From NCBI RefSeq assembly GCF_026151205.1, contig NC_087076.1, positions 20,702,828-20,766,827 on the forward strand: 64,000 nt of DNA, written 5' to 3'. The stretch's first letter is position 1; each line of letters starts with the position of its first letter. The notes beneath the pieces were generated by a model, which had not been told where the DNA came from, did no database searches, and saw nothing but the letters and a program-made list of their open reading frames with translations. Positions 8,321 to 59,200 of the stretch are shown here, in pieces. A program made the translations under genes and the position numbers. This stretch comes from Bolinopsis microptera (lineage: Eukaryota; Ctenophora; Tentaculata; Lobata; Bolinopsidae).

Positions 8321-8335
8321 GTTCACTTTGCACCA
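8321..8335. repeat. Right target-site duplication of the LINE copy
   Basis: Follows directly after the (AAGT)n tail and pairs with 6873-6887, fixing the insertion at 6888-8320. Confidence 0.85.
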
Positions 8336-8976: not shown

Positions 8977-9441
8977 TTAAGGGGGGGGGGGGGGGGGGGG
9001 GGGAGGGGTTCACCCTGATTTTTTCTGTGAAACTTGTTTTCGAGATAGCAGTTGACCAACAAACTAAGACCGGTGACCGAACTTTTGAGGGGGTCCCGGA
9101 CCCCAACCGCCAAACGGTGCCCGCGGGGCAGCCACGCCCATATTTGGTCCAAATCAGGCCCAATTTAGCCAAATACCCTGAACATGCCCAAAACCCAGAT
9201 TTTAGGTGCTCTACTTGTAGCTAGTGGTCCCTTGAACTCGTATATGAATTGTCATCAAGATTGGACAAAAAATGACTGAGTTATGAGCTAAAAACTATAT
9301 GCCCATATTTGGGCATACGCACTAAATTTGATCGATTTTGGCCCATAAATTGGTCAAATATCAATATTTTTGAATGAAACTAACTTTATATGAAAGGTAA
9401 GCCTAAACTACACATCCCCCCCCCCCCCCCCCCTCCTTAAG
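8977..9441. mobile_element. MITE-like repeat bounded by poly-G and poly-C
   Basis: The left edge reads CTTAA followed by G23 (8981-9003). The right edge is C18 (9416-9433) followed by TCCTTAAG, so the two ends are inverted copies of TTAAGG plus a G tract. The interior repeats the GGGCATA and TTGGTCAA themes. A related segment with a GC-rich core and a poly-C end lies at about 34780-34890. No coding capacity. It may be a short non-autonomous DNA element or a composition-driven repeat. Confidence 0.4.
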
Positions 9442-10905
9442 ATTTAAGTTACGTTCAGATAATATAAATATAAATTATAATTTGCAGGCATTTTAGCTTG
9501 TTGCGGGACCTAATATAATAAAATAACAACTTTACAATACTGTATACCTTGCCTTAATTATGCTCAAGACCAGCTCGACCCATCCAAAGATCTAATCACA
9601 AAAGCTTCCATGAGGGTAATTGTAACATTTTACGTCTTGAATTGTTAGAAAGCTCGGTGTAAAACTAATGCAAATCCTTGTAAGTTATTTGATGTGTTAA
9701 ACTAAACAATCATCCTCTTATTTCTTAACCATATTAATCTTTATACAAATTCGCAATTTCTGTTGCACGGAGATTGTAATAAGTTTTCTCCACTTTCAAT
9801 AATCTTACCTTTGATGCATTGTTTTGACCGTAGCAATTATAACCCATCAAATAAGCAACAGTTTTATCCTACTTATAACGGAAATTGTAACTTTCATTGT
9901 CTATCGGAGGAATGAGTTTATAAATGATAGTTTCGCTTCTGATAATTCACACGCAAGTTTAATAAATTGCTTCACTAATTATAATAGGTGGCAGGTGCCC
10001 GATGTCATTGCTATGACCAGTTTACTGGTCATCTGGTGTTTCGTTGTCCCTGATTTTGCTTACACTAGGTCACTTGATCAAGGCCATATATAATAGGTCT
10101 TTCGGCGAATTTTTAATGATACAATTTGAATTATTTATTTTGTGTAATCAATTTGAAAGTTTGTTAATAACAAAATTAGTAATTATTAGTTAGCTACACA
10201 AGACACATAGTTACAATACACATAACATGAGTAGACACACCTTGAGGAACACTGCACTAGAATGAGTATGACATTAGTATGAGGTCGAACGCGTGTTATA
10301 TACACAATTATGTGTACATACAATGTGAGTAGTTCTAGTTTGTGTACCTCTCACAAAGTTGATCGATCATATTCTCTAGAATGCTGGAGTGGGTTACATG
10401 ATCCCTGTACTTACGATCTGCGTGTACTCACCACTTCACCACAACAGACTGTGATCTCCATTTAGGTTTCAACTATTGTTGCTCACTAAAATAGACGAAC
10501 ATTCGTTTATTGATTTATAGTCGGTTTCAAAATCGGTGCAGTAGTTTAGTTGTTTGATGCAAATGTTTGATGATTGATCTGGTCTGAGGAGGAGATTTTA
10601 TCTTAGCAGAGCGTGAAGGTTAGCACTTGTTATAAATAGGACGAGTATCAGGTACGTGAGAGAGCTGTACGCTTATCTGAAACTCCGAAAAGCTGTAAAG
10701 AACAGTCATATTATGCTCTATTATTATTCCGCTTCTAGACTTATAAAGATTAAAGATACTTGCATTTTGCATTAATCATTAATGGGTATATTACCTATAT
10801 ATTACCTATATTGCCTATATTACCAAATTTTATTAATATATAAGGGTTAAGGTTATGAATATATCACTGAATTTTGGTGAGTGAATCTTGATTAAATTGT
10901 CACAA
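9442..10905. other. Non-coding AT-rich stretch
   Basis: No exon-like frame with flanking splice signals, no RNA gene and no clear repeat recognised. The 89-codon frame at 9824-10093 has no recognisable domain. Confidence 0.4.
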
Positions 10906-11245
10906 TTATGATCAATCAGAACTGTTCATTCTTAATGGGATATGATAATTTATATTAAATGCTATTATTAGTTCGTCTCTTTATAGTTAGACTAAAACCA
11001 CATAAAGTGACATCCTGCCACACCACGCGTGAACCAATTATTTATCCATTAGTAGTTTATTTATTCATGAGTTTATTTATTTATCAGACCAATCAGAATT
11101 GTTCGTTCTTAATGGGATATGATAATTAACATTAAATACTGTTTGTAGTTCGTCTCTTTATACTAAAACCACATTTAAAGTGACATCCTGCCACACCACG
11201 TGAACCAATTATTTATCCATTAGTATTTTATTGATTCGTGAGATT
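10905..11245. repeat. Imperfect tandem duplication of about 170 bp
   Basis: 10905-11078 and 11088-11245 share long blocks, including TTCTTAATGGGATATGATAA, TAGTTCGTCTCTTTATA, TGACATCCTGCCACACCACG and GAACCAATTATTTATCCATT. Small indels and substitutions separate the copies. Confidence 0.85.
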
Positions 11246-11470
11246 TTATGCTTTTTGCATATTATATTGCTTCGCTCCAATCTAACCATTATTCATTACT
11301 TTTTGCTTGTCTTTTCAGAATCTTTCAATTCGTATACAAATTTAAAGTAATTATTAACAGGATAATGATATGACAAAGGAGCCGTTGCTTATTAACCAGA
11401 TAACAAAGGAATTGTTAATCCGGCTCAACGGTATAGATGCCGGTCACAATGATTGAAACACCCACGGAGG

Positions 11471-12150
11471 GTAAGTGTGTGAGTCCGCACGTGTCATTGT
11501 GTGTAAGTGTGTGAATCCGCACGTGTCATTGTGTGTAAGTGTGTGAGTCCGCACGTGTCATTGTGTGTAAGTGTGTGAATCCGCACGTGTTATTGTGTGT
11601 AAGTGTGTGAGTCCGCACGTGTTATTGTGTGTAAGTGTGTGAGTCCGCACGTGTTATTGTGTGTAAGTGCGTGAGTCCGCACGTGTCATTGTGTGTAAGT
11701 GTGTGAGTCCGCACGTGTCATTGTGTGTAAGTGTGTGAGTCCGCACGTGTTATTGTGTGTAAGTGTGTGAGTCCGCACGTGTTATTGTGTGTAAGTGCGT
11801 GAGTCCGCACGTGTCATTGTGTGTAAGTGTGTGAGTCCGCACGTGTCATTGTGTGTAAGTGTGTGAGTCCGCACGTGTTATTGTGTGTAAGTGTGTGAGT
11901 CCGCACGTGTTATTGTATGTAAGTGTGTGAGTCCGCACGTGTTATTGTGTGTAAGTGTGTGAGTCCGCACGTGTTATTGTGTGTAAGTGCGTGAGTCCGC
12001 ACGTGTCATTGTGTGTAAGTGTGTGAGTCCGCACGTGTTATTGTATGTAAGTGTGTGAGTCCGCACGTGTTATTGTGTGTAAGTGTGTGAGTCCGCACGT
12101 GTTATTGTGTGTAAGTGCGTGAGTCCGCACGTGTCATTGTGTGTAAGTGT
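11471..12150. repeat. 32-bp minisatellite, about 21 copies
   Basis: The unit begins GTAAGTGTGTGAGTCCGCAC and continues GTGTCATTGTGT, with a period of exactly 32 bp. Variation is mostly T/C (GTGTTATT or GTGTCATT), G/A (GAGTCC or GAATCC) and GTGTGTAAG or GTATGTAAG. Blocks of variants recur, suggesting higher-order duplication. Each unit holds a CACGTG palindrome and a GTAAGT donor-like hexamer. There are no spacers, so this is not a CRISPR array. Confidence 0.95.
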
Positions 12151-13610
12151 GACATGCTGATTCTGAAACTTTTATTAATTTTATACGTTTACCTAAGTTA
12201 CAGAAAAAAGCATACTAAAAAGCTATATAAATAGTTAGCTCCTCTAAATGCTATCCTGCACTAAATCTTTGATGAAAACAAATTGAATAGATGCAGTTTG
12301 CAGTTTGGTATAATTTTAAAAAATCTGACCTCTGACTTTTGTTATTTAAAAAATGCACAAATTTTCAGAAGGTACATTTTAGGAGATAAGTTCATTAAAA
12401 TGTACAGGTTTAAACCCTCCTGTCACGATGAAAGTCGAACCCAGAGTGAGTTGCACTCGTCACTCACTGCAGTGACTATATCATACCCACAATTCAAGGG
12501 CTACATTTTCTTCCATCAGCTTGATAAGTTGAATCAGTAATAAAATGACACATAGTTTTTGAACGCCAAGGATAGGAACCGACTGGTCTGAGATTTTGGG
12601 TGCCGGATCGGAAATGTATTTTTGAAATTTCTAACCTTCGATCAAATATGAACGAATTTTTCATTTGTCCTAAAAGTTTTGAAATATCCAATCGACGGTC
12701 ATTTAAAAACTTGAAGTCTCTTCGTTCCTTTTTTTCCCACTTATCTCATGCTGTTCAACTAATTAACAACAACAAGAACAACAGCATAGCATAAAAGACA
12801 TGTGAATGTAATCTTGATGGAGCCATGATTGAGACAATTGATCAATGTTTAGCTTACCTCAGACTCCATTGTTAGTTAGCACAATTCATGGAGACTTTAG
12901 TCTATACGGAGATGCAAGAAACTTAAGAGGCTGTTATGGTGACTCGATAACTCGTACTCCGTTTTAGTTATACATACTAATTGCTATAATGAGTACGTAC
13001 CGTACGTATTTCGACTAATTGCAGCTTGTTTTGCGGTGCTATGCCGCTACTTTCATGTGTTATGCATATACTGATATAGGTCATATTCATATATTCAATG
13101 AATATAGGCACTACTTATTGTCTAATACACATAAACCGAAAACATAGATTGCATATTATACATAACAGTGGAAAAAAGAAATGCTGCCTCATATATCTTT
13201 TATAAATTGTGTAGGCGGCCGCTCAATCGCCTGATACATCAACATGGTGAATGGTCCTCAACCATTTATTGTTACCCATTTACATCTCTCAGCCCTATGC
13301 AAGACTTACTAGGATCTGTTCATAGCGATTATTGTAATCATTATGATTTTACTTAATTACCTTCTCGGACCTTATTTTTGGGACATTACGTGAACGCTGA
13401 TAGGAGCCCTTTAGCGTTCACATATTCATATCATCCTATTAAATACTTAAATATATTCTGATAAGGCAATTAGCTGTAGTGCCCTATATTACTTTATCAT
13501 AAACCATGGACTAAAAGCAATTCAGCAACGATATATTTTGCATTTCGTAGCAAATTTTATCACGATCTACGTGGTGTTTCGAGGTCTCAAGAACTAAAAT
13601 AAAACATTTA
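12151..13610. other. Non-coding stretch
   Basis: Short frames at 12283-12540, 12600-12794 and 13168-13356 lack domains and convincing splice context. Nothing else recognised. Confidence 0.35.
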
Positions 13611-33200: not shown

Positions 33201-36200
33201 AACAAATAAATATGATAAATCTTCTTCTGTCCATGTCGCTCTGAAAGGTTCTGCAAATTCACTTCTAGATATGATGGTCACAATCATGGTCATCATGGTG
33301 ATGGCAATCTGAGTCGCAATCATGGTGGTCACAGTCATGGTGACATTCATGGTCATCATGGTGATGGCAATCTGAGTCGCAGTCATGATCCCCGTCACCA
33401 TGGTCGCAATCATGGTCGCAATCTTGGTCACAATCATGGTCATCATGGTGATGGCAATCTGAGTCGAAATCATGGTGGTCACAGTCATGGTGACATTCAT
33501 GGTCATCATGGTGATGGCAATCTGAGTCGCAGTCATGATCCCCGTCACCATGATCGCAATCTTGGTCACAATCATGGTCACAATCATGGTCATCATGGTG
33601 ATGGCAATCTGAGTCGCAATCATGATCCCCGTCACCATGGTCGCAATCTTGGTCACAATCATGGTCATCATGGTGATGGCAATCTGATTCGCAATCATGG
33701 TGGTCACAGTCATGGTGACATTCATGGTCATCATGGTGATGGCAATCTGAGTCGCAGTCATGATCCCCGTCACCATGGTCGCAATCATGGTCACAATCAT
33801 GGTCATCATGGTGATGGCAATCTGAGTCGCAATCATGGTCATCGTCATCGTGCTTACATCGCTTCACAAAGTTCATGTCCTCTCCATCAGCAAATCTAGT
33901 AGATCTGGATATAATAATATCCTTCTGCATGTGGGCCTCTACATCACCCACACCCACATTTCTAGCATAGCAACTGTAACATAGCAACACTAGCGTGACA
34001 GCCAGGATAAGACAACTAGTCGACTTCATGACTTGGGAATTATTTGGTCTGAACGGTAGATTATCAAAAAGATAGAATATCAAAATGAAGATTGTTTCTC
34101 CTTATCAACGAAACCAAAACAAAGAGGTTTAAAGGCTTAGTTTAAACGGTGCCGCATAGTCGCAACGAGAGGTCCAATAACAATAACACAATCAAAAAGA
34201 AATCAATCTAACTGTTCGGCAACAGAGCAAATTCGCTAGGGAAAGGAAATATAGACTAAATTACCTTGAAAAGATGTTTTTATTCACTTATTGAGAATTG
34301 CCTTAGACAACTATTAAAGATCTTTAATATATAATTTCACCCCGACAAGAAAGGTGTCACCTATAAGAAAGGTGTCAAGATGAATATGTAAATATAGTAA
34401 GGGCAGTAAAACGACAAAGAAATGGTTTTAATACAATTACAACCGCTCGATTGGCGATAACAAAAATCTTTCCGGGGGCATCGTGTGTCTAAATCTAGTA
34501 TGATTATGTTCCTGTTTCAATAATAACAACACCAAATATGATTCAAGTACTAATGTCATGGTGTTGTCCTTCAACCCTGTTTATCATCTTGAAATCAGAT
34601 TGGCATAATTTTTTGTTAAAGTTATATATTATTATATGATTTCTGATTTGACAATAGTACAAATTTTAACAGCAGATATACCTAGAAATTTAGTAGGTGA
34701 TTTGGGAGGGCTTCACAAGTTGGGGTAATAGATGCTGATTATATATATCATATTATATGGTGCGAACAATAAAGATGCTTTTCTGGTGAACCAATGGACC
34801 ACGTATGGGCATGGCTGTCGGCTGCCCTGCGGGCACCAGTGGGCGCCCGGAGCCCCCCAGTTGGTCGACTGCCCCCCCCCCCCCCCCCCGCCTTAGCGTA
34901 AATTGTTCACCACTTTTGTCTTTGGTCCAGATATAACGTTACTCTACACAGTAATTGTACGTCAACCCAGGCCACACACCTGTGTACTGTGTACACTAAC
35001 TTCACACATATTCTATAACTTAATTAGCTTAGTTTCTACTGATCTCCAGCATTTGAGTTGTGAGTAGAGGCCAGCGTTCAATAAGTGTGTAGTTATTGAG
35101 AACAGATGGCTCTAGAAGCTGGAATCATAGGCCACAAGTAGTCAACTCAGATAACAAAATTTACACTTTACAGTTCAACAGACAATATTGTACATGTACG
35201 ACTTATGACTATGTATATATTATTATTATTCTATTGTATACTAGTATACTATAACAATATAATCTATATTATATACGATCGGCTTGTAGCCATTATAAGA
35301 GCTGGTCATTGATAAGTACACCATTCTGAGTATAATTACTTAAAGACATTTGTAGGGGGGGGGTGTCATGTCCGTCTATGTCCGCCTATGTCCTGTCCTT
35401 TTTGGATTCTATGAGACAACGGACGTGTTTTTTGGGACATAGGCGGACACGGACGGACATTGGCGGACACGGACGGACATTGGCGGACTCGGACGGACAT
35501 TGGCGGACTCGGACGGACATTGGCGGACCCGGACGGACATTGGCGGACTTGGATGGACATTGGTGGACATTAGCGGACATTGGTGGACATTAGCGGACAA
35601 ACATTTTGAGGACTGAAGAGTACTGAAGAGTACTGAGGAGGATGGCTGAGAAGGATGGCTAAGGAGGATGGCTGAGGAGGATGACTGAGGAGGATGACTG
35701 AGGAGGATGACTGAGAGGGAGGAGAAGGCCCAGTGGCAAATAGTCAGGCGTCCAGGTATTTAACACCTAGTCAAAATTTGTTGATAACCGGTAAAAAAAG
35801 ATTCTTGTGGAAAAAATATTCACATTAATTTAAAATTAAATCAAAATTGGTCGCTCTCAGGGCTAACGCGATGTTACATCATTTTATCGACTCGAAGTTC
35901 GAATCGAGCGCATTCCTAGATTCCATGACTATTTCTTACCTATAAGATTGCTTGACTATTTTTTGCGCATTCAGACACCAAAAAACGCGCAGAAAACGCG
36001 CGCTATCCATTCCTCCTTCCTCAACATCCCGGAATATGAAAAAATAGTCATGTAAAATAGTCATTTAAAATAGTCATGCAAAATTTCAGCTCTGATACGC
36101 TAAAATATCAAGTTAATCTTAAACAATCGACAATCTAATATGAATCCTCCCAATCCTCCCAGCCATATTAACTGGTGAACGGTGTAAATATAGAGCGGTA

Positions 36201-39200
36201 TTTTAAAATGTAGCATTCAAAATTTTATGGATTCAAGTTGGCTCCTTTAGTCTAGATTCATTTAGAAAATTCTCGAAGTTCGAGTAATACAGTATTCTCA
36301 GGGTTTGGCGCTTAAGGAAGCTTCACATCCGAGACCGATTTCCACGAATCAATTTAATATTGTAGCTACAAGTCAACAACAGTGCAAGTGGGAAGGAAGT
36401 GAATCTAGCCATTGCTACTATATCAGGGGAACTCGTGTGTTCTAGGCTTAAGCAAGCTTCACATCCTAGATCATCTAGAGTACAGTGCAGACAACCCCCT
36501 CCATTATACATCCCTGTCCCGCTTTAAGTCCGAAGTTTATCATTGTTTATTGTCCAATATTGTATCTAGCCTGGCAGAAGCAAGCTTCAGATCCAAAGTC
36601 AGGCCATAAATATCGACACAAGGTCGAAGTCACTTTCAGAATAGCGAATCGTCTATCATGCTGATGAGAGTCAAATCTTAGAATTCGATCTACCGAGTTG
36701 GTATGAAGAAAAGTATAAAGATGTTTGTGGGCTAGGCTGTATACTTCTTTTAAAAAATATTTCCTTGCGTTTCAAATAAATTAAAGAATTCTCAGAAATT
36801 TTTTATTTAATTTCAAAATTTGCAATTGCATATTCATCCGGTAATTATTCTAATGGATACGCTAAGCATTTCAAACTAATCTTGACCTGGGAGAAGAGCT
36901 GACCAGTGACAAGTCGGCCGCAAAGCGGCCGAAAAATATATAGCCTTTTTTTCTTCCCAAACTGGATTCCTAGTCATATTTAAAATTTATTCCACTGGGG
37001 GAGAAGGATCAGGAAGACCCAGGAGGAGGAGGACCCAGAAGGAGGACCTAGGAGGAGGAGAAGGAGAACTGAGGAGGATGACTCAGGAGGAGGAGGACTC
37101 AGGAGGAGGACTGAGAAGGAGGAGGACTGAGGAGGATGGCTGAGGAGGATGGCTGAGGAGGATGACTGAGAGGGAGGAGGAGGAGGAAGAGGAGGAAGAG
37201 GACTGAGGAGGAGGAGGAGAAGGACTGAGGAGGAGAAGGAGGACCCAGGAGGACCCAGGAGGAGGAGGACCCAGGAGGAGGACCCAGGAAAAGGCCCCAG
37301 GAGGAGGAGGAGGACTGGGGAGGAGGAGAACTGTTGAAGACTGATGAGGAGGACTGAGGACGAGGAGGAGTAGGAGGAGGACTGAGGAGGGGAGGAGAAA
37401 GAGGACTGGGGAGGATCAGGAAGACCCAGGAGGACCCAGGAGGAGGAGGAGGACCCAGGAGGAGGAGGAGGACTGAGGAGGACTGAGGAGGAGGACTGAC
37501 GTCTGACGATGACTAAGAAGGAGGAGGACTGAGGAGTACTGACGAGGATGGGTGAGGAGGATGGCTGAGGAGGATGACTGAGGAGGATGACTGAGAGGGA
37601 GGAGGAGGAGGACTCAGGAGGAGGACTCAGAAGGAAGAGGAGGAGGACTCAGGAGAACTGAGGAGGACTGAGGAGAACTGAGGAGGAGGAGGAGGAGTAG
37701 GACTGAATAGGAGGAGGAGAAGGAGGGGGACTGGGAGAGGACTGGGGAGGAGGAGGACTGATGAGAAGGATGAGGAGGAGGACCGATGAGGAGGAGGACT
37801 GAGGACCGAGGAGGAAGAGGAGGAGGATGAAGAGGAGGAGGAGGACCCAGGAGGAGGAACACTGAGGAGGAGGACTGAGGAGGACTGAGGAGGATGGCTG
37901 AGGAGGATGACTGAGAGGGAAGAGGAGGAGGAGGAGGAGGAGGAGGAGGAGGACTCAGGAGGAGGAGGAGGACTGAGGAGGACTCAGTAGGAAGAGGAGG
38001 AGGACTCAGGAGAACTGAGGAGGACTGAGGAGAACTGAGGAGGAGGAGGAGGAGTAGGACTGAATAGGAGGAGGAGAAGGAGGGGGACTGGGAGAGGACT
38101 GGGGAGGAGGAGGACTGATGAGAAGGATGAGGAGGAGGACCGAGGAGGAGGAGGACTGAGGACCGAGGAGGAAGAGGAGGAGGATGAAGAGTAGGAGGAG
38201 GACCCAGGAGGAGGAACACTGACTGAGAGGGAAGAGGAGGAGGAGGAGGACTCAGGAGGAGGAGGAGGACTGAGGAGGACTGAGAAGGAGGAGGAGGAGG
38301 AGGACTGAATAGGAGGAGGAGGAGGGGGACTGGGGGAGGACTGAGGAGGAGGATGGAGGACTGAGGAGAAGGATGAGGAGGAGGACTGAGGAGGACTGAG
38401 GAGACACTCCGGCTGAGGAGGATGGCTGAGGAGGATGACTGAGAGGGAGGAGGAGGAGGAAGAGGAGGAAGAGGACTGAGGAGGAGGATGGAGGACTGAG
38501 GAGAAGGATGAGGAGGAGGACTGAGGAGGACTGAGGTGACACCCCGGCTGAGGAGGATGGCTGAGGACGATGACTGAGAGGGAGGAGGAGGAGGAAGAGG
38601 AGGAAGAGGACTGAGGAGGAGGAGGAGAAGGACTGAGGAGAAGAAGGAGGACCCAGGAGGAGGAGGACCCAGGAGGAGGAGGACCCAGGAGGAGGACCCA
38701 GGAAAAGGCCCCAGGAGGAGGAGGAGGACTGGGGAGGAGGAGAACTGTTGAAGACTGATGAGGAGGACTGAGGACGAGGAGGAGGAGTAGGAGGAGAACT
38801 GAGGAGGGGAGGAGGAAGAGGACTGGGGAGGATCAGGAAGACCCAGGAGGACCCAGGAGGAGGAGGAGGAGGAGGACCCAGGAGAAGGAGGAGAACTGAC
38901 GAGGATGGGTGAGGAGGATGGCTGAGGAGGATGACTGAGGAGGATGACTGAGAGGGAGGAGGAGGAGGACTCAGGAGGAGGACTCAGAAGGAAGAGGAGG
39001 AGGACTCAGGAGGAGGACTCAGGAGGAGGACTTAGGAGAAATGAGAAGGAAGACTGAGGAGAACTGAGGAGGAGGAGGAGGAGTAGGACTGAATAGGAGG
39101 AGGAGTAGGAGGGGGACTGGGAGAGGACTGGGGAGGAGGAGGACTGATGAGAAGGATGAGGAGGAGGACCCAGGAGGAGGAGGACTGAGGACCGAGGAGG

Positions 39201-42200
39201 AAGAGGAGGAGGAGGACCCAGGAGGAGGAGGACTGAGGAGGACTGAGGAGGATGGCTGAGGAGGATGACTGAGAGGGAAGAGGAGGAGGAGGAGGAGGAC
39301 TCAGGAGGAGGAGGAGGACTGAGGAGGACTGAGAAGGAGGAGGAGGAGGAGGAGGACTGAATAGGAGGAGGAGGAGGGGGACTGGGGGAGGACTGAGGAG
39401 GAGGATGGAGGACTGAGGAGAAGGATGAGGAGGAGGACTGAGGAGGACTGAGGACTGAGGAGGAAGAGGAGGAGGATGAAGAGGAGGAGGAGGACCCAGG
39501 AGGAGGACCCAGGAGGAGGACTCAGGAGGAGGAGGAGGAGGACTGGGGAGGAGAAGGACTGTTGAGGACTGATGAGGAGGACTGAGGACGAGGAGGAGGA
39601 GTAGGAGGAGGACTGAGGAGGGGAGGAGGAAGAGGACTGAGGAAGATCAGGAAGACCCAGGGGGAGGAGGAGGAAGAGTAGGAGGAGGAAGCATCTAAAT
39701 GTTATTTCCATTTTTGTCCGTTTTTGTCCATTTTTGTCCGTTTTTGTCCGCTCTATTTTTTGTCTGTTTTGAAAATATAGGGTACCGAACGGACAAAAAA
39801 CATGATCCCCCTATAACAGCAAAAATTGAACATTTTATTTAACAATTTAGGTGTCCATTAATGTCCGCCTATGTCCGCCTATGTCCGTCTATGTCCGCCT
39901 ATGTCCGCCTATGTCCGCCTATGTCCGTCTATGTCCGCCTATGTCCGCCTATGTCCTGTCCTTTTTGGATTCTATGAGACAAGCGGACATAGACGGACGT
40001 GACACCCCCCCCTTTGTAGTAATCTGCCTGTTTACTACTCTTTAATCCATACAATTATAATACTTAATACCTAATATGTAATATTAAGTGTGTTTATACA
40101 CACGGTTCTGTGAGGAACTAGTTATCTGCACAGGATGTTGATCATAAAGCTCTACTACCCTCCAGTTTCAAACAAACTACTCGATCTTTGAAATAGTAGC
40201 TAACATTGCATTCTATTTGTAAGTTAAAAATAAAATAAATAAAATAATAGTACTATATCAAACAGTTAACCGTATTCTAACCTCTTGAGGGGGAGGTTTA
40301 GCGAGGTATTTCTCCATGATAACAGAGAGAGCGATAGCGGAGAGTATACACACAACCGGAGTAAGTGTTAACATCAGTCGAACCATCACCCCCGCGAAGT
40401 AGGACGCGAACACTGCGTATAACAGAACTGAGAGTGTTACTTGGTGTTACTTGGTGTTACATGGGAGTGTTACTTGGTGTTACTTGGGAGTGTTACATGG
40501 GAGTGTTACTTGGGAGTGTTACTTGGTGTTACTTGGGAGTGTTACTTGGGAGTGTTACTTGGGAGTGTTACTTGGTGTTACTTGGTGTTACTTGGGAGAG
40601 TTACTTGGTGTTACATGGGAGTGTTACTTGGTGTTACTTGGGAGTGTTACTTGGGAGTGTTACTTGGGAGTGTTACTTGGGAGTGTTACTTGGTGTTACT
40701 TGGGAGTGTTACTTGGGAGTGTTACTTGGGAGTGTTACTTGGGAGTGTTACTTGGGTGGTTGGCTACTCGCCAGTTCTAGTGCCAACATTTCAGAGTATC
40801 GTTTTGACGGAATTAAAGTCCTGGAGCCTCAATTTTATTTCTCAGTGAAAACTGAAGTCCATATTTATTATCCATCAACTAGAAAGAGGGGGTAATTCGT
40901 AAATAGAATTGAGCCGAGAAAAGCAATTTAGATAATCCCTCACTTTTAAGGAACTTACCTAAGACATTTCCTTTCCCCAAACTTATCAATAAATTTGTAG
41001 TATAGTTTGTGGTCAAGGTGCAAGTTCCATGTAAAATTAACTTTATCAACTTGCGTTTGTGCACGTTAAAATCCCAACTTTGCGGTCTCAATATTAACTT
41101 AGAAATTACCATATCACATTTAACGCCATTAGATTTATTTTACCACTGACCCCATCAGCCCCTCTGTCTACTTGATAGGGACTATGATTATCGTTTTGAC
41201 ATGGAATTTCCCACTAAACTATAAATCTTAAAATTACCGATGCTAAACTTTCAGCGTTAAAGTTGTAAAACAACGACTAAAAGGAAGTTAAAATGACATA
41301 TTTTAACAAGAGACTCACTAAAAACACGTTCGGTAGTGAGGTTCTTGAAGCAGATCCAGGCTCCAGCAGGGAAGAGAGGGACCATGATGTGGAGATCGAA
41401 GAAGAATGCTACCCAGGTGGTAGGTTGGTGCTCTGATACTGATGCAATGATCGGTATGTGGATCTTTGCATACCTGCAGGGAGAGAACGTGTCACAACGT
41501 GTCACAACATGTTACAACATGTTACAACGTGTCAAAACATGTAACAACATGTTACAACGTGTCAAATACATGTTACAACGTGTCAAAACATGTTACAACA
41601 TGTCACAACATGTCACAACATGTCATGTCACAACATGTCACAACATGTTACAACATGTTACAACGTGTCACAACGTGTCACAACATGTTGCAATATGTCA
41701 CAACATCTCAGATATGAGACGAGAGGGTGCTCATGCTGCTTGAATCTAGATACAGATTATTAAAAATGATTTGGGACTGAGTTAAGATGTGTAAGGTGAC
41801 ATGAGTAGGACCCAATCACCTTTTATGTTTCTTTCATTACAATATCCACGGTGCGGTGGAAAATGGATCAGTCATCAGCTTCATCTGTATTCACGATATG
41901 CAATGTCCATTTATTTTGGTAGCTTTAGTACTTGAAAAGGGTGTGCAGGGGCGGATTGTACAGCTTGAGCAGAGTGCTACAGATTTTGCAACAAATTTTC
42001 CTGCTTTATTTAGTTACTTAATTCAAGCTGTTCAGAATCCAATCATTTGAATTGCGTAATGTACTGTGGCTCAAGAGTATAGTGGACACGGGAGCTTGGA
42101 TAAATTGAAAAATGAGAATACTGACTCACCAAGTGTCCCACAAAGAGTAGAATCTGCCACTAATTACTCACCCAGTGTGTCACAAAGAGTAGAATCTGCC

Positions 42201-45200
42201 ACTAATTACTCACCCAGTGTCCCACAAAGAGTAGAATCTGCCACTAATTACTCACCCAGTGTCCCACAAAGAGTAGAATCTGCCACTAATTACTCACCCA
42301 GTGTCCCGCAAAGAGTAGAATCTGCCACTCATTACTCACCCAGTGTCCCACAAAGAGTAGAATCTGCCACTAATTACTCACCCAGTGTCCCACAGAGAGT
42401 AGAATCTGCCACTAATTACTCACCCAGTGTCCCACAAAGAGTAGAATCTGCCACTAAATACTCACCCAGTGTCCCACAAAGAGTAGAATTTGCCACTAAT
42501 TACTCACCCAGTGTCCCACAAAGAGTATAATCTGCCACTCATTACTCACCCAGTGTCCCACAAAGAGTAGAATCTGCCACTAATTACTCACCCAGTGTCG
42601 CACAAAGTGTAGAATCTGCCACTAATTACTCACCCAGTGTCCCACAAAGAGTAGAATTTGCCACTCATTACTCACCCAGTGTCCCACAAAGAGTATAATC
42701 TGCCACTCATTACTCACCCAGTGTCGCACAAAGTGTAGAATCTGCCACTAATTACTCACCCAGGCCAGTGTCCCACAAAGAGTAGAATTTGCCACTCATT
42801 ACTCACCCAGTGTCCCACAAAGAGTAGAATCTGCCACTAATTACTCACCCAGTGTCCCACAAAGAGTAGAATTTGCCACTCATTACTCACCCAGTGTCCC
42901 ACAAAGAGTATAATCTGCCACTCATTACTCACCCAGTGTCGCACAAAGTGTAGAATCTGCCACTAATTACTCACCCAGGCCAGTGTCCCACAAAGAGTAG
43001 AATTTGCCACTCATTACTCACCCAGTGTCCCACAAAGAGTAGAATCTGCCACTAATTACTCACCCAGTGTCCCACAAAGAGTAGAATCTGCCACTAATTA
43101 CTCACCCAGTGTCCCACAAAGAGTAGAATCTGCCGCTCATTACTCACCCAGTGTCCCACAAAGAGTAGAATCTGCCACTAATTACTCACCCAGTGTCCCA
43201 CAAAGAGTAGAATTTGCCACTCATTACTCACCCAGTGTCCCACAAAGAGTAGAATCTGCCACTAATTACTCACCCAGTGTCCCACAAAGAGTAGAATCTG
43301 CCACTAATTACTCACCCAGTGTCCCACAAAGAGTAGAATCTGCCGCTCATTACTCACCCAGTGTCCCACAAAGAGTAGAATCTGCCACTAATTACTCACC
43401 CAGTGTCCCACAAAGAGTAGAATTTGCCACTCATTACTCACCCAGTGTCCCACAAAGAGTAGAATCTGCCACTAATTACTCACCCAGTGTCCCACAAAGA
43501 GTAGAATCTGCCACTAATTACTCACCCAGTGTCCCACAAAGAGTAGAATCTGCCGCTCCAAGGTGCCACATATCCAGCCCACGTCAGGCCGGTCAGCAGC
43601 ATAAAGCCCAGTACTGATGAAATAAGGAATCCCGTCTTGAACAGCACCTGATCGGAAATACTCTTACAGTTTCTTGTACGAGTTCCTTTGAAATGTTAGG
43701 TCTAGAGTAAGAACAATTAGACGACCTTGTCACTAACACATCATACAGTAATATCGGCATTTCCAATCTTTAAAAGGGTGAATCTGTCGGATGATAATGA
43801 CACTGGGTTTAAAACAAATGGGGGATATTTAACCTCAAACTGCTTCTTGGTAGTAGCAGCTTTAACGTAGTGTAGAAAAGCCACGATCTGGAGTAACCCG
43901 AATACGCCGAGAGCGGCCATGTGCTCGCTGGTGCGGAGCGGCTGGAATCCCACGAAGGGAACCTGCATGCTGCAGATCAGACCAACTATGTAGAACGTGC
44001 TGTATGCTGCGGAGAGTAGCTGTGTGTCATGTTGATTGAGGGGGGGGGGGGGGGGGAAGTAAATACAGTAATTTATATGTTTTATAGTTGTGTCGTTGTT
44101 CTTGTGAGTTGCGATGATGTAAGAGTTAAGTTTAAGGAAAGTAAAGGATTTTGTTTATACTTTTTAACGCTAGACTATATAAGTCATACATAAGTATTAC
44201 CACAATTAGTATACTATGGTCTATGATACTGTTATAGGTAGCCAAAATTCTAAAGTATTTGCTATATTTTGTAAGATCTTGGCTATATTTGGAATGAAGC
44301 CGTACAGCAGCTGACAAGTAATGTCGTAATGCCTATTTTATGTACGGCTAAAGTGAATTTGTATAAAACAACAGGCTCCATTATAACCGAACATGCATAT
44401 AATCAAACTTACAAAATTTCCAAATAACTTACAGATGTATATTTTAGCGCTGAATTTGCCCATGAGCAGGACAACGAGGACGTGAAGGGGCACGAGGTTG
44501 GTGATGAAGACATACCCACCCCAGGCTGAGACCATGTAGAAATAGCTGAGAGCAGCCAGTATCGCCCACGTTACTGAACCCTTCTTCATTGCGCGGATCT
44601 GGGAATGGCAGTTATTTGGGTTATTTAGTGGAAATATTTTAATCTTTTCGGGTTCTTTAGTTTTTAAATATCTGGAATGGAATGTTTTAAGGTGAAATAC
44701 AACCACAGGAGCATTTAATCACCAGAAGGTCTGACAAAATGTAAGGAATAAAATATAAGCTGACCTATCGAACTCAATATCGTATACAAGGCACAAGCTA
44801 ATATTGTTATAATTAAGTTAATTGTTACAAATATAATTAAGCTAATTGTTATAATTAAGCTAATTTCTCTAATGTAACTTACCCACAAGAAGAAGGTGAG
44901 CATGAGAGCGAAGATGGCAATACCTTCGTTGTCATAACTACCAGCAACAGATCTGGATATGTAGCCGGGTGCTGTAACATTACCTCAGTTAATAACATTG
45001 TCATGGTGATCACACAGTTGTCATGGTCATCACTATCTCTCCACCGCATTACACAGAGTATATTACAGGTATTTAAGTATGAAGGTAATACGGAGGTCTC
45101 AGTATTCTAGAGGAGATTGGTATAAATTCATTTATAATGAGTCGCGTAGTTCAGGGCTACTACTACTACTACTACTACTACTATTACTACTACTACTAGT

Positions 45201-48200
45201 TCAGGGCTTCTACTACTACTACTACTACTACTGTAAAATCCGGATTGGAGTATTATTTATGAGTCGCATTGTTGTAATGTATTCTGGGTAAAAATTATCT
45301 TTATCCCGGTTGTTGCGACAAGTAAAAATGCTCTTATTAGGGAAAGGAGATTACTCGACGTTTCAATGTAACTACATCGTATTCATGATCTCAAATTATT
45401 TGTTGTATAGTAGTGTTGAAAGTATTTTAATACTTTCAACACTACTATACAACTACTATATAGTAGTGTTGAAAGTATTTTAATACTTTCAACACTACTA
45501 TACAACAAATAATTTGAGATCATGAATACGATGTAGTTACATTGAAACGTCGAGTAATCTCCTTTCCCTAATAAGAGCATTTTTACTTGTCGCAACAACC
45601 GGGATAAAGATAATTTTTACCCAGAATACACTACTACTACTACTACTACTACTAGTTCAGGGCTACTACTACTACTAATTATAGTCCCGCAGACGGACTA
45701 AGCTATAAATATAAGTCACTAGTTAAAGTTTCCCATCACTAGTCCCGCAGACGGACTAAGCTATAAATATAAGTCACTAGTTAAAGTTTCCCATCACTAG
45801 TCCCGCAGACGGACTAAGCTATAAATATAAGTCACTAGTTAAAGTTTCCCATCACTAGTTCCTAATCACATTTACTCGAGTATTTGACCCGACCCCGGCC
45901 CCGGATGAGTGCCTCAATCTGGGATTCCCTCCCATTTCCATATTAAAATTAAATGCCTATTCCTAGTGCGTGTATCATTTATAATAAACCAACAGGATAT
46001 ACTACTGCTACTGCTACTGCTACTGCTACTGCTACTGCTACTGCTACTGCTACTGCTACTGCTACTACTGCTACTACTGCTACTACTGCTACTACTGCTA
46101 CTGCTACTGCTACTGCTACTGCTACTGCTACTGCTACTGCTACAATGGGATCTATACCAATCAATAACTTCAAAATATGTTATAATTTATGTGCCGATCT
46201 GTATCATAAAAGTAAATAAAGCGATGAAGCTATGTGTCAGACGGGTCAGACACCTATTTACATAATATACAGAAAGTGTTTTTACGCTGCATCAAGTTAT
46301 TAACGTAATGTAAATGATGGCCAGTATTAACACCCTCAGGGGATAGATTCCGTTCTGAAGGGCAGGGAGGATAATGGACGAGATTTCCATTTTATAAAGC
46401 AATGGTAAGCTTATGAGAAAAACTGGTCGGAACATCTAACATACAATAAAGTGCTACTGCTTTTTAAAGGTGATGGTCAGCTTTTGACTGTACACTGTAC
46501 AGTATACAACTTAGTCCAGGATAAGTCTTAAAGACGTTTCATTTCACAAAGTAATGCGCTAGAAACTAAGAATTCCAGGATAAAAATTCCACCCGGTAAA
46601 TTGCAATCTTAAAATATCGATAAATTTTGACTTGTCATTAGTTATTCTCTCGATACATAATCTTTAAAAGTTTAGTCAAATGACAATAATGTATTTCCGA
46701 AAAGTAAATTTGACATAGATCATAAGTATTAAATGTTTTTACGTGTTACTATCCAAGTTATACGCAATTAAGAGAATAAATAACCATTATTATTTAATGA
46801 AGTCACTAAGCTACACTTCAGCAAAGTACACACTCCTAGAAAATGAGAAACCAAATTTCAATCTACCTGAACATGTTGATTACAATGTTTTACCTATAGC
46901 GATGAAGCTGAACATGTTGATTACAATGTTTTACCTATAGCGATGAAGCAAGCAGCCAGCAGCCCTGCTCCAGTGCTCCACAGTTCACGTGTAAGGAGGA
47001 ATGTTGTTATAGCTGTCAGACCACTGGAAAATGGGTAATTAGAATAATTAGCTTGATGGTCATTTATCATATTTATATTAATAAGAATACAATTTGAGAG
47101 AGGTAGAAGTTGTATTATAACTTTATAACAATAAAATTGCGTGTTTTTTCAATGTAGCTTGATTTTAGTTGATTGTTGTGTTGTAAGTGTCAAGGAAGCG
47201 TGGTAGATATGGTATAATTGTTGTACGTTCTGAATGATTTATTTTTGGTCAAAGCTAAGGCAAGTGCAGACTGCAGCTGTACTCCTGACCATTTTTCTCG
47301 AATTTCAGTTTTTGAGAAAACTACATAAAAGAATATTACATATGATACAGCGCCAAGGGACCAATGAGATTCTGTGAAATTTTAAATGCACTCGACGACA
47401 ACATATAAAAGTTTAAGTATCCGTAGTTAAAAGAAATCTCTACCAGTGTTGTCATTACGAGTGACAACTACATTCGGTAATTATGAGATACACGATTGTC
47501 ACGTGCCTTAATCGCAAGAGTGAGATTAATTAAAATAACTGTCACGTGAGCAGTCTGACAACCAATCATACCAGTTTCTAACAGCAACACTGGATAGATT
47601 ATAGAAATATTAATACACAAGCCAAATAATCATTATATATTCGACAATATATAATCTGAAATCAAAGTTAACACAGAGAGCTGGTGTTACCTGAAGATAG
47701 GAGCCAGGAAGACACATATATCTCTGATGTGGAAGGGTATGTTGAGGGAATGTAGAATCCAGTGTATAGTGCCCGAGGTTAACATCAGGCCTGGATATAC
47801 CTGTATGTGGGGCGTCAACTAGACCCCTCATTAAACACCCAGCAAGTATAACACCTTGTACAGACAAGGTGTTATACTTCTTCACTTTATAATGCTATCG
47901 GTAAACAATTAAAAAAATGTGGATCCTTTTAAGCTGGCCCCTAAGATCTTAGTAATAAACTCGATTATTTTGTAACTTTAACACAATGTGCTGATTTACA
48001 GCTTGATAGTGTTATTAAACTATTTAAGACTTACGGTGCCACCGACAATGCGACCAAGGGGGTACCATGCTCTAGAGTCGAACCAGTTTAGGAAATTGTA
48101 GAAACCATTCTCAACCATGTGGTGAGTTGCACGGTAGTTAAACCTGGGGTGTCATGCTGACATCTTCTAGTTGTTCAATGGCTTTGGGTTTATTTTCGGA

Positions 48201-51362: not shown

Positions 51363-52903
51363 TTAGGGTTTAAGAGTGTTGATCAGGTTAAGGTCCAAAT
51401 CACTTATTGCCGTGGGTGGAAGGGTTCTGGTACCTCTGTACCCCCTGATAGAGATTATACAGGTTCTGAGTAGATCAAAACGCAGTCTGCGTCTGACAAA
51501 TGACATCACATCACAATACCGTTGGCCTTTCTTTAGGCTGATCTTTTCAGCGAGATGTTTTAGAAACTGTGAAGCCTCAGTTGCCATTCCTCCTGTAGTA
51601 CTGAACACCAGTGGCGTGAAGGTAGCCTTTTCAACATTGAGGACTCTGTCATTGTACTCACGTTTTTTGCTTTTCTCGTGAGATTGGTACATCTGTGAGA
51701 TGCTCTTGTCACTGTTGGACTGGGCTTGAGGGTGAAGTACCCTTACATCTGTGAATGCCCTGTCCAGCGGCGACCAAAACGATCTCGCACTGATGTCCAG
51801 TCTTGCACCATCCTGTCTATTTGTTCCATTAGATAGTTCAAGTGTGTGAGGAACGGAGAGAAGCTGGGGTTCTGTTTCAACGTCTTTGCAAACAGTGGTT
51901 AGGAGTTCAGCTATTGTATCTCTTAGTGAATTGTGTCTAAGTGAAACGTAGCCTCCGATTTTGCAGGTTAGAGTATGGTTGATATGATTTTGATTTCCAC
52001 ATACACATAGGGAACTTCTGTTAGCTGTAGACAGTGTAAGATTATATCTGAGTGAGAGGGCATCAAAGAATTCTTGTTTGTTAAGGACGTACCCACATGC
52101 TTTTAGAGGGAGTGTGGATAACCAAATGGATGCTCCTTTTTCACTAAGGAGTTCTAATTGCCTTTGTGTTGATGGGGATACCTCATTCATAATAGTTTCA
52201 CGTTGGTGTTTGTAAAGCTCTTCCTTACGCTTCTTTACTTCACTTATGATGTCATGCTGCAGTTCTTCGTTTAGTTGGAAAGTAGTAAGCTGTTGAAAAA
52301 CTGCTTCTGTGAGCTGTTTTGTAGCATTTACTGAGTTAGTGTACTCCATCTCTGCTGTTGATGTGCAGTCTGGAATGCTCAGCCCGCCCATTCTTGCAGG
52401 AAGTGAAGCTATTTTTCTGATTTGATCAGGCACAAAACTTTTGCCCATAATGGCTGGTATAAAGTCTTCCTTGACACAATATTCCAAGTGTTTCAGATGG
52501 TCGGAAATCCCTGGGGTTGTACGGCAAACAAAATTCCATCTTTTGGAGGTTCCGTAGATGAAAGCGGAGTAGGCTAGCTGGGGTTCGTTTGCAGCTATTT
52601 CGACGAGTCCAAGAATGTCTGCTTTCCAACTTTCGGTCTCCTTTAGTATGAACTCTTTTACCCCTTCTTCTGATCCAATATATGACCCAAGATAACGGTG
52701 GCCTTTGGTAGTGATCTGAACATCTGGAAAGAGTTCCTTAGCTTTGGTTGCATGCTCTGGTTTCACTATCAACCATGTCTTGCTGGGTTTTGGGTAATAC
52801 CCATACATGGGACCATGATCTTTAAGGTCCTCCCACCATTTCGTGAGTTGATCAAGTTTACCCCCTGCTGCTGAGTCGTCAGCATACCAAACTTGTTTGG
52901 GAT

Positions 52904-55149
52904 AAGGCATTTGGAAAACTATCAAACATGCTTCAAACTTACCTGGAAAAATAAGTAGCTCTTCCCCAAGCAACTTAAATGTTAACGGAGTTAACCTGCA
53001 TTTTGCCACAGTTGGTACAATAATACAAGAATCGATTAAGGAAAAGGATTCAGACGACTTCCTAGAATATATGCCGCCTCCAACAGAGTGTAAACTCTCT
53101 GTATTCGAAGAGGTGACTGTTGAACAAGTAAAAGAATATATACTCAGTATACCATCAGATAAATCGATTAACGATATCATGCCCATTAAAATATATAAGT
53201 ATATTATTCCCCAAATCATCGATCCAGTAGCTCATATTATAAACCTTAGTATGAAAAGTGGAACAATGCCGTTGGCATGTAAAATTGCATCAGTCACTCC
53301 AATTCTTAAAACTGGTGACCCTAATGATCCAAATAACTACCGGCCAATATCCATACTCCCCCTACTTGGAAAATGCATAGAATATTTTGTTAACCAACAG
53401 CTTACAGACTATGTTGAAACAAATAAACTGCTTACCAACCATCAGTATGGTTTTAGAAAAGATCATTCCACCACTTTTTTAATGCTTAATCTGTTTGATA
53501 AAATATTTACGTCTAAGGAATCACAGAAGAAACCTGCAATTGTATTCTTAGATATCAAAAAGGCCTTTGACACAGTAAGCCATAATATTTTATTAAAAAA
53601 ACTTAAGTATTATGGAGTTGATGGCTTTGTCATAGAGTGGTTCAAAAGCTACCTGGGGGACAGAAAGCAACACACCAAAATACGTGGTAATGTAAGCACA
53701 TCACTCCCTGTTAAAACAGGTGTGCCACAGGGTAGCATATTAGGACCAATTCTATTTAGTTTATTCATAAATGATCTCAGTAGAAATTGCACACAATCTA
53801 CTGTTTACTTATTTGCAGATGACAGTGCACTATATTTTGATAACATTTCCCGAGGCATATATGAGAATGTAATTAAGGATATGAAAATTGTGTATGAATG
53901 GCTTAGAATCAACAAGCTGAGACTAAATGCTGCAAAATCTTCATTCATTGTATTTGATAGATCACCTAATCTGGACACGTTGTCAATCCCTCTGGATTTG
54001 GAAAAAGAATGCCTATTTATAGAAGAAACTAAATCTCAAAAATATTTAGGTCTCATGATAGACAATTTTTTGAACTTTCATGACCATATTGATTATGTGA
54101 AATCAAAAATTGCTAAAAGAATAGGGGCACTATACAGGTCGAAAAATCTTCTTCCACTGAAATATAGAAAAATGTTTGTAAATGCTCTTATGCTCCCCCA
54201 ATTTGACTACCTGGATATAATATGGTGCAGGGCTGCCAAAACCAAACTTAATTCTCTTGATATATTATACAAGAAAGTAGCAAAAATTGCTCTGGATGTT
54301 CATTGGCAGGAACCATCAGTAAATGTATATCGAAATATGAAGTGGTTACCCTTACACTTAAGAAGACAACTCCATCTGTCAACGTATATGTATAAAATTC
54401 TTAATGAGGCTGCACCATCATCATTCACAGATAAATTTTCTTATGTATCCGGAGGATCACGTGATGCTGAGAGGTGCAACCTTTATATTCACAAATCCAG
54501 AACACACAAAACCTTTACATATTTAGGTGCAAAATGTTGGAATACAATTCCAGAGAACATAAGGACTATAGAATGTAGTGTAAAATTCTCACAATGTATG
54601 AAATCTAAATTTATGTCAGATGTAATTCAAGGAGTCTCATCCTATGAAATAAACAATAGTTTCGACTATTTCTACACTCTAGCTAAGTGACAACTGAAAC
54701 AAATTTTATGGGGCTGGAGTTTTTGTCGGGTGGAAAGGCCCCCTGTGTTATATATGACCTAGGTATTTCCAGAAGTATAGAACTTTAAACATCTCCTTTA
54801 TTCGTTCCCATTTTTTATCATTGCCAATCTATTATTGTTCTATACTTCTCTGTATATAACTGTAAATAACATTACTAACGTTATCCCAAAGTGGGCATCT
54901 ATGTAATCTTAATTGTTACCTTCATGCCCACAGTTCACTGTTAAATCATATCTTATTTTATCACTCATTATTTTATTACTCATTATGTTTACATACTATA
55001 TCCTTATGTCCCTAGAAGGGTGTTCTGCTAACAGTTTTCGACTGACTTGAATGTCCTGCACAGCAGATTGAAGCTTCTTAAATTATTTTTATTCTTATTG
55101 TATTGCTGTGTAAATTTGATTCTAATTCTAATAATTCTAATTCTAATAA
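52904..55149 (+). mobile_element. LINE copy 1 (CR1/L2/Jockey-like), 5'-truncated, inserted in the REL element
   Basis: From 52904 to its 3' end this copy matches 57117-59351 with about 15 differences noticed by eye. The frame at 53071-54690 (539 codons, extending upstream in the element's own frame) encodes RT motif A FLDIKKAFDTVSH, motif B GVPQGSILGPILFSLFINDL, motif C YLFADDSALYF and the thumb (FDYLDIIWCRAAKTKLNSLD). The tail is made of TTCTAA units (55130-55149) rather than poly(A), as in CR1-like LINEs. At the 5' junction AAGGCAT is shared by element and target. The endonuclease domain is lost. Confidence 0.9.
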
Positions 55150-56241
55150 GTGTTGGGTTCCCTGTCTGATTCTGGTTCTGTTTCAGGTTCTGTCTGTTTA
55201 ACCTGGACTTCTCTGAGCAGAGGCATTAGGCTCAGTGCATACCATCCGAGTGCACAGGTATCTCCCTGTGTAGTTCCTTCCTGTGATTGTAAGTGGTCAT
55301 CACTGTTGGAAATGAATAGGTTAGCTTCTTGTCTGTATGTATTTAGGATGTAAGTGAATAGCTCTGGACAGGTGTATCGAAGATTCCTAAGGGCTGTGTT
55401 GCGATTTAATGCATTGAAGGCGTTTTCAGCATCAACAAGCAGGATCGCTTCTGTGGATTCCTCTTCAAAGATCTTTCTGACTGCATGAATGGCCGCTTCC
55501 ACTCCTCCTTGTAAGCCACCACACAGTTGCATGGGTGCTGTGTTCATGATAATGTCCTGTTTCAATGTGGTCATCACTGCTTTTCCGACTATTCTTCTAA
55601 GGACTTCACCAATCCCAATGGGTCTAACCCCTGGGTCTTTATCAAGGGGGATGAGGCGACCTGCTATGTATGTTTTCAGGTGATCGGGCTGTATCTTTTG
55701 GCAACACAGCTTTCTGGCCAAAACTGCAACTGCTTCTTTTAGAAGTTCAGGCTTTTTCTTAAACTGCTTAGAGCAGAGAATATGCTGCCATGTCTCTGCA
55801 TCAGTTCCTGAGGGCCCACCAGATCCACTGAGGTCTCTTGCAACCTTTTCAATTCTGATGGAATCAATGGAATCAAATATGACGTTGTCTACTTCTTCAA
55901 TGGGTCCCTTCATCAGACTAGATTCGAGTGATGGGCTGCTTTCAGGGTGTTTCTTTATGAGTTCCTGTATGACAGTAGGGCTTGTGTCCAGGAGTTTACT
56001 TCTCTGGCTCCCATTCCATCTTAAGGCTGCGGATACTTTTCCTAGTAACATGAGTCGTGTAAAGACTTTGTTGTGATGTCCAGGGCTGTACTTAGATTTG
56101 AGTAGGCGATCTTGTATTGATTTACATTCCCTAGCGAGCTTCTCTATTTCGCCATCTTTCCATAGTTGGAGTCTTCTTTCCAGGTGTGCTACATGGTCTT
56201 TGGCTTTAGAGGATTTGGAGGGCTTCTGGAGCAGGAGGGGA

Positions 56242-59200
56242 AAATTATAAGCGTCATAGTAATTGCATTACATTTGCTGCTTCTACAGATCACAAAACTT
56301 TTGTCACCTAGATACTTTCCTTGATTATATGACTGAATGTATGATGAAACTTCAAGGTAAGAAAGTAATATGGATTGGCGATGTTAATGTTAACCAAAAC
56401 TCTTTATCTGATCTAGATTATAAAAAGTTAGATATAACAATGAAGCTCTTTGGAATGATACAGACTGTTACAGGAATTACTAGAGTTGCAAACTTAGATG
56501 GTAGGATAACGCAGAGCACAATAGATGTTGTCATGACTAACTGTTACTCTAATTTCATAGAGTGTAAAGTACTTGATGATAGAATAGGAGATCACCAAGC
56601 TCTCAAATGTGTTCTCGACTTTAAAGTAAGTAAAGCTAGTAAATTCCAGAAGGTTCTTATCAGAGACCACTCCTTAAACAATCTGAAAGCCTTAAGCTAT
56701 TTTCTGGGATCCTGCAGCAACTACAGTAATATTCTAAGCTGTACTAATGTAGACCATGCCCTAGATGGACTTAATCATCACATCCAGGAATGGTATGATA
56801 ATTACTGTCCACCTAAACAGATAAAATGTAATAGTAACTTTCTCTGTAATCCCTCTAAAGAACTGTTGGCAGAAATACGGAAGAAGAAGATGCTTTTCAG
56901 AAAGTATAAAAAGTGTTTAGGACAATTAAACAAATTCAAGTGTAATTGTATTAATGGAATATGTAAATGCAGAAAAAGTGAACTACATAAGAAATGCTCT
57001 ACTTCGTGGGATAACTATCGTCCCCAAAGAAACTATGTGACAAAATTATCCAAAGAAAACAGACGTACAAATATTGTTCAGGACCTTACTGTGAAAAGTG
57101 CAAAAAACGATTTAAAAGGCATTTGGAAAACTATCAAACATGCTTCAAACTTACCTGGAAAAATAAGTAGCTCTTCCCCAAGCAACTTAAATGTTAACGG
57201 AGTTAACCTGCATTTTGCCACAGTTGGTACAATAATACAAGAATCGATTAAGGAAAAGGATTCAGACGACTTCCTAGAATATATGCCGCCTCCAACAGAG
57301 TGTAAACTCTCTGTATTCGAAGAGGTGACTGTTGAACAAGTAAAAGAATATATACTCAGTATACCATCAGATAAATCGATTAACGATATCATGCCCATTA
57401 AAATATATAAGTATATTATTCCCCAAATCATCGATCCAGTAGCTCATATTATAAACCTTAGTATGAAAAGTGGAACAATGCCGTTGGCATGTAAAATTGC
57501 ATCAGTCACTCCAATTCTTAAAACTGGTGACCCTAATGATCCAAATAACTACCGGCCAATATCCATACTCCCCCTACTTGGAAAATGCATAGAATATTTT
57601 GTTAACCAACAGCTTACAGAGTATGTTGAAACAAATAAACTGCTTACCAACCATCAGTATGGTTTTAGAAAAGATCATTCCACCACTTTTCTAATGCTTA
57701 ATCTATTTGATAAAATATTTACGTCTAAGGAATCACAAAAGAAACCTGCAATTGTATTCTTAGATATCAAAAAGGCCTTTGACACAGTAAGCCATAATAT
57801 TTTATTAAAAAAACTTAAGTATTATGGAGTTGATGGCTTTGTCATAAAGTGGTTCAAAAGCTACCTGGGGGACAGAAAGCAACACACCAAAATACGTGGT
57901 AATGTAAGCACATCACTCCCTGTTAAAACAGGTGTGCCACAGGGTAGCATATTAGGACCAATTCTATTTAGTTTATTCATAAATGATCTCAGTAGAAATT
58001 GCACACAATCTACTGTTTACTTATTTGCAGATGACAGTGCACTATATTTTGATAACATTTCCCGAGGCATATATGAGAATGTAATTAAGGATATGAAAAT
58101 TGTGTATGAATGGCTTAGAATCAACAAGCTGAGACTAAATGCTGCAAAATCTTCATTCATTGTATTTGATAGATCACCTAATCTGGACACGTTGTCAATC
58201 CCTCTGGATTTGGAAAAAGAATGCCTATTTATAGAAGAAACTAAATCTCAAAAATATTTAGGTCTCATGATAGACAATTTATTGAACTTTCATGACCATA
58301 TTGATTATGTGAAATCAAAAATTGCTAAAAGAATAGGGGCATTATACAGGTCGAAAAATCTTCTTCCACTGAAATATAGAAAAATGTTTGTAAATGCTCT
58401 TATGCTCCCCCAATTTGACTACCTGGATATAATATGGTGCAGGGCTGCCAAAACCAAACTTAATTCTCTTGATATATTATACAAGAAAGTAGCAAAAATC
58501 GCTCTGGATGTTCATTGGCAGGAACCATCAGTAAATGTATATCGAAATATGAAGTGGTTACCCTTACACTTAAGAAGACAACTCCATCTGTCAACGTATA
58601 TGTATAAAATTCTTAATGAGGCTGCACCATCATCATTCACAGATAAATTTTCTTATGTATCCGGAGGATCACGTGATGCTGAGAGGTGCAACCTTTATAT
58701 TCACAAATCCAGAACACACAAAACCTTTACATATTTAGGTGCAAAATGTTGGAATACAATTCCAGAGAACATAAGGACTATAGAATGTAGTGTAAAATTC
58801 TCACAATGTATGAAATCTAAATTTATGTCAGATGTAATTCAAGGAGTCTCATCCTATGAAATAAACAATAGTTTCGACTATTTCTACACTCTAGCTATGT
58901 GACAACTGAAACAAATTTTATGGTGCTGGAGTTTTTGTCGGGTGGAAAGGCCCCCTGCGTTATATATGACCTAGGTATTTCCAGAAGTATAGAACTTTAA
59001 ACATCTCCTTTATTCGTTCCCATTTGTTATCATTGCCAATCTATTATTGTTCTATACTTCTCTGTATATAACTGTAAATAACATTACTAACGTAATCCCA
59101 AAGTGGGCATCTATGTAATCTTAATTGTTACCTTCATGCCCACAGTTCACTGTTAAATCATATCTTATTTTATCACTCATTAATTTATTACTCATTATGT

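Follow-up and report, generated by a model that had tools for sequence, protein, structure and literature searches.

A minisatellite of splice donors at exon 8 of an STT3B-type gene of Bolinopsis microptera, and arrays of the same kind at splice junctions of other genes

The window, the whole 64,000-nucleotide stretch analysed, is part of contig C5 of the Bolinopsis microptera genome (264.65 Mb). It carries an STT3B-type gene on its minus strand, and the donor of exon 8 of this gene lies at one end of a tandem array that takes up much of intron 8. The features concerned are the following (window coordinates).

48646 down to 30584, minus strand: STT3B-type gene, 12 exons traced, 568 codons, from GT-AG borders, the Pfam STT3 match on C5 and protein record P0001; the gene runs on past 30584
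43526..43647, minus strand: exon 8, 122 nt, ending GACACTGG
41474..43525, minus strand: intron 8, 2,052 nt
41319..41473, minus strand: exon 9, beginning after CCCTGCAG (then G TAT GCA)
42124..43554, minus strand: array of a 42-bp unit drawn from exon 8 (29 nt) and intron 8 (13 nt), 34 donors, from Tandem Repeats Finder (TRF)
43520..43525, minus strand: first donor, GTGAGT, which yields the normal protein, from the motif count and the P0001 protein
42124..42129, minus strand: last donor, GTGAGT, in the context TTG/GTGAGT, from the motif count

TRF reported a single array at 42124-43554 with a period of 42, 33.8 copies, 93% matches and a score of 2520, so that repeat fills roughly 1.4 kb of an intron of 2,052 nt. 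Exactly 34 GTGAGT donors were counted on the minus strand, the first with its G at 43525 and the final one with its G at 42129. They are spaced by 42 nt in 31 of the 33 intervals and by 47 nt, with an additional CCTGG, in the other two. The 9-mer TGG/GTGAGT is common to 33 of them, TTG/GTGAGT being the donor farthest from exon 8. A preliminary description of this DNA had proposed that an exon end of an STT3 gene was amplified about 34-fold together with its donor, the unit being the last 29 nt of exon 8 joined to 13 nt of intron, and both the counts and the exon trace agree with this. Exon 8 ends GAC ACT GG/GTGAGT with its last codon split after two bases; joining to exon 9 gives W-D-T-G-Y-A-K, while reading on into the intron meets TGA after one intron base, again as described. 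Compared with CAGGTAAGT, the exon 8 donor agrees in 7 positions out of 9, the top score among the 12 traced donors and one that four others share. A codon model built from 39 open reading frames for ab initio exon finding scored poorly on the known STT3B exons and was dropped.

The best protein match to the traced gene was P0001 (771 amino acids, ten members, from a 2,799-nt contig), with 99% identity over the whole 568-residue query, and the named relatives among the matches listed were mostly STT3B. In the one of the ten members that was read, P0001 runs WDTG-YAK across exons 8 and 9 and is a normal STT3B. Given that the traced gene spans 18 kb, the 2,799-nt contig is most probably derived from a spliced transcript. 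As it encodes normal STT3B, the donor attached to the exon body is used, which bears out the earlier placing of the exon 8 end at the first donor.

Arrays were then compared with those in other parts of the genome, using 20 loci of 10 kb taken at round-number coordinates. Genes for EDC4 (L023, EDC4_C match 3.7e-12) and GMP synthase (GMPS; L021, GMP_synt_C match 1e-23) came from these, while a second STT3 gene (contig C11, L009) was examined only as a paralogue of STT3B. The named relatives of the second gene are STT3A, and its nearest records are at most 94% identical and so probably not this species' own. Altogether five donor arrays and two acceptor arrays were found to straddle junctions, in four genes (STT3B, STT3A, EDC4 and GMPS), and three further arrays end 4 to 15 nt short of an acceptor, two of them in STT3B and one in L016. 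Apart from the array at exon 8 they are as follows.

Window 46867..46949, minus strand: perfect 41-bp two-copy duplication over the exon 4 donor of STT3B (exon 4 = 47023..46935), from TRF and the exon trace
Contig C11, L009: STT3A donor array, 28 bp x 13.1, exon end (ALAYFYM) plus donor
L023: EDC4 donor array, 30 bp x 69
L023 3808-3991: EDC4 acceptor-straddling array, 46 bp x 4
L021: GMPS donor array, 54 bp x 11
L030 8597-8955: GMPS acceptor-straddling array, 43 bp x 8.4; L030 is the ten kb upstream of L021, added to complete the gene
Window 41486..41710, minus strand: 10-bp array, 22.9 copies, stopping 12 nt before exon 9 of STT3B; it abuts the acceptor and does not include it; from TRF and the exon trace
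Window 40432..40756, minus strand: 13-bp array stopping 4 nt before exon 10 of STT3B (40427) and abutting the acceptor, from TRF and the exon trace
L016 3902-5049: 52-bp array, 22 copies, ending 15 nt short of a kinase-like exon's acceptor

The exon in L016 matches protein kinase at 22.3 bits, short of Pfam's threshold, and looks CDK8-like. The exon share of the five donor units is 29, 14, 13, 22 and 50 nt, so the breakpoints fall without regard to the splice site. In the STT3A paralogue, the position that corresponds to STT3B intron 8 lacks an intron (L009, exon ending at 4161). The 20 loci held 12 arrays with a unit of at least 25 bp and at least four copies, of which three straddle a junction and one, that of L016, lies near an acceptor; for the remaining eight (L010, L013, L028) no tie to a junction was seen in the scans made, which cannot show absence. 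NRAP (L031), chosen as an unselected gene, has a single open exon of 2.5 kb. Thus the exon 8 array, implied by the preliminary description to be a single oddity, belongs to a group of such arrays in this genome, with acceptor arrays among them.

The array in STT3B is of an already known kind, the donor-bearing minisatellite. A minisatellite giving multiple splice donors in human IFI6 (6-16) was reportedly described in 1995. In that gene two downstream repeat units serve as donors (PMC4526556). The likeness is close in that a tandem array lies at the end of a coding exon with a donor in each unit, the unit of STT3B likewise starting in a coding exon and running into the intron. In IFI6, however, downstream units are used, whereas the Bolinopsis records seen use the exon-attached copy only, and Bolinopsis differs further in having up to 69 copies and acceptor arrays as well. 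Human genes located in segmental duplications carry internal tandem repeats where exon meets intron (PMC2812944), and minisatellite expansion at the boundary similarly alters gene structure. Many of the human cases are said to give novel introns or alternative transcripts, whereas in Bolinopsis an existing intron has become longer and normal products are encoded in the records seen. The other precedents are intron gain through tandem genomic duplication (PMC4974935) and repeat expansion in Cryptococcus (PMC2395259). Intron gain by this route shares with the Bolinopsis arrays a duplicated stretch that includes splice-site sequence. It makes a new intron, whereas in Bolinopsis one existing donor or acceptor is copied with its partner site outside the repeat; in STT3B the acceptor of exon 9 lies outside the array, and the repeat does not supply both splice sites. 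No paper on arrays of this kind in ctenophores was found in the literature listings, which show part of the hits. Within the literature searched, no account of recurrence within one genome or of matching acceptor arrays was seen.

Which copy is used can be followed best in GMPS. Its 54-nt donor units are in frame and free of stops, and use of a downstream donor would therefore leave a longer protein, so that a wrong choice would leave a readable trace. The five closest records, P0241-P0245 (two of them annotation entries at NCBI, the other three from contigs 2.1 to 2.9 kb long, P0245 possibly from a close relative and not the same species), have a single RTVGVQ-GDG and a normal KRVDCAYRFLNGKTW behind the acceptor array. 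Judged from these protein sequences, the copy joined to the exon body appears to be used at donor and acceptor arrays alike, among the records seen (at most 712 amino acids). Other rules of splice-site choice are the intron-proximal rule for donors and first-AG scanning for acceptors. Use of the exon-attached copy at both ends fits neither of these but fits exon definition, which a survey (PMC9225289) describes for alternative sites in long introns.

From these results, the array is probably a minisatellite of the ordinary sort, founded by a duplication that by chance spanned the exon 8 donor. The founders of such arrays would have been made by tandem duplication with arbitrary breakpoints, and expansion would have followed by slippage or unequal exchange. 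The order of units in STT3B, AABACAABACAADEFBADEFBEAFGHIAJAAKL, is as expected for minisatellite turnover: on the exon side a higher-order repeat of five units (AABAC) occurs twice, whereas the variants found once only, G to L, lie at the far end. The arrays would be close to neutral since, under exon definition, the sites bounding the real exon are paired with each other and the extra copies are left to act as intron. Errors at donors 2-34 of STT3B would all meet the same immediate TGA, and the product would probably be degraded by nonsense-mediated decay. The arrays thus look like mostly harmless repeat expansion. Neutrality had been one of three options left open by the preliminary description, and it is now the best supported, given that the arrays recur in other genes, that the exon share ranges over 13-50 nt and that normal proteins are on record.

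The arrays line up from 2 to 69 near-identical donors, with the same stretch of exon (13-50 nt) in front of each, or from 4 to 8 acceptors. These stacks are natural ones, the genes that hold them are conserved, and the animal belongs to an early-branching lineage. Exon against intron as the unit of recognition, and the choice among identical sites, are usually tested with small constructs, and here a natural test is available.

Several observations weigh against this reading. The GMPS search admitted proteins of at most 712 amino acids, and products of the fourth donor and beyond (about 730 amino acids and more) were excluded by it; P0244 is labelled isoform X3, and X1 and X2 were not among the records seen. 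Over the four larger donor arrays, 2 of the 25 variable columns fell within the 8-nt windows around the donor, where window length alone predicts about 5.4 (P about 0.09), in a count made by hand which left out units of odd length (5 of 69, 1 of 11 and 2 of 13). Furthermore, arrays may have a preference for junctions. This was assessed by placing the unit of each array at random positions in non-coding sequence of these four genes, with arrays collapsed to one unit, some EDC4 exon bounds being approximate and one GMPS exon not located. For all 31 arrays, 7 straddled a junction against 2.75 expected (P=0.013), and stricter filters on copies and unit length, chosen after seeing the data, strengthened the excess. 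Without exclusions the filters gave 6 of 14 against 1.34 (P=0.0003) for at least four copies, 7 of 14 against 2.02 (P=0.0014) for a unit of at least 25 bp with any number of copies, and 6 of 8 against 1.21 (P=0.0001) for both together.

Such an excess would be expected if junctions were preferred birthplaces of minisatellites, either because something about transcribed exon-intron borders promotes tandem duplication or because arrays of long units survive best there. Besides the figures above, the three arrays that stop within 15 nt of an acceptor favour this explanation. It is nevertheless an unlikely one. When the three arrays that had led to the selection of STT3B, EDC4 and GMPS were dropped, 4 of 28 straddled against 2.33 expected (P=0.20), and score cut-offs of 40 and 80 gave P=0.20 and 0.07; an earlier version with three genes gave 5 against 2.24 (P=0.06). 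With this exclusion the same post hoc filters gave 3 of 11 against 0.92 (P=0.044) for at least four copies, 4 of 11 against 1.60 (P=0.056) for a unit of at least 25 bp, and 3 of 5 against 0.80 (P=0.024) for both. Enrichment of GTRAGT in the 122 units of the 20 loci was not found, with a ratio of 0.70 and only two hits. The enrichment of arrays at junctions is thus suggestive only. The earlier suggestion of a slippage process acting on splice junctions is therefore borne out in part: the process looks like one of tandem duplication in general, and the favouring of junctions, with P=0.013 or 0.20 according to the arrays admitted, is no more than suggested. By hand estimate, three straddling arrays (unit of at least 25 bp, at least four copies) lie in 200 kb, two of them in one gene, which extrapolates to about 4,000 genome-wide (Poisson 95% about 800 to 11,600). 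A broader proposal, still speculative, is that junctions are hot spots of minisatellite birth, that the genome holds hundreds to thousands of donor and acceptor stacks and that exon definition alone selects the exon-attached copy. If junctions are indeed such hot spots, introns would have a way of growing that has attracted little notice.

The idea that the 33 extra donors are decoys, tuning STT3B output either by sequestering U1 or by drawing splicing towards a poison product with the immediate TGA, appears very improbable. GTGAGT is kept in all 34 donors and any later donor leads to the identical TGA, both as a decoy would have it, and the slightly low variability of the donor windows is a weak hint of conservation. 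That deficit is not significant, and selection on the donors was rejected. Similar arrays are present at acceptors and in unrelated genes, and the units of EDC4 and GMPS are in frame and largely stop-free, so that they would yield no poison product. A fold of exon 8 with three units was no better than its shuffles (z 0.46). No evidence was found for the tuning role raised by the preliminary description, though products of donors 2-34, with their shared TGA, would easily escape notice in stable mRNA. That the array is an artefact of assembly is scarcely credible: its copy number rests on one assembly and not on reads, but 1.4 kb of array sits within a 23.6 Mb contig, its unit variants are ordered, two of its intervals are 47 nt, and the same kind of array occurs on other contigs.

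Some further repeats and open frames were noted. An array at window 11471-12151 has 21.3 copies of a 32-bp unit that starts GTAAGT straight after CCCACGGAGG, and it is a donor-like candidate. Intron 10 of STT3B contains a 278-residue open frame (window 33265-34101, minus strand) that begins like a signal peptide and holds many repeats of Asp, His and Cys; it may be a nested gene encoding a secreted repeat protein. Short arrays form a composite at window 35435-39956, L009 5194-6940 and L030 3634-5826, with parts that are alike: 10-20-mers of GGACA/TGTCCGCC, 10-mers of GGACAAAAA type and a long AGG/TCC tract of 1-2.7 kb. This composite may be a dispersed repeat element. Finally, long open frames of 622, 594 and 879 amino acids at window 51363-58899 are reverse-transcriptase-like by eye and are probably the remains of a retrotransposon.

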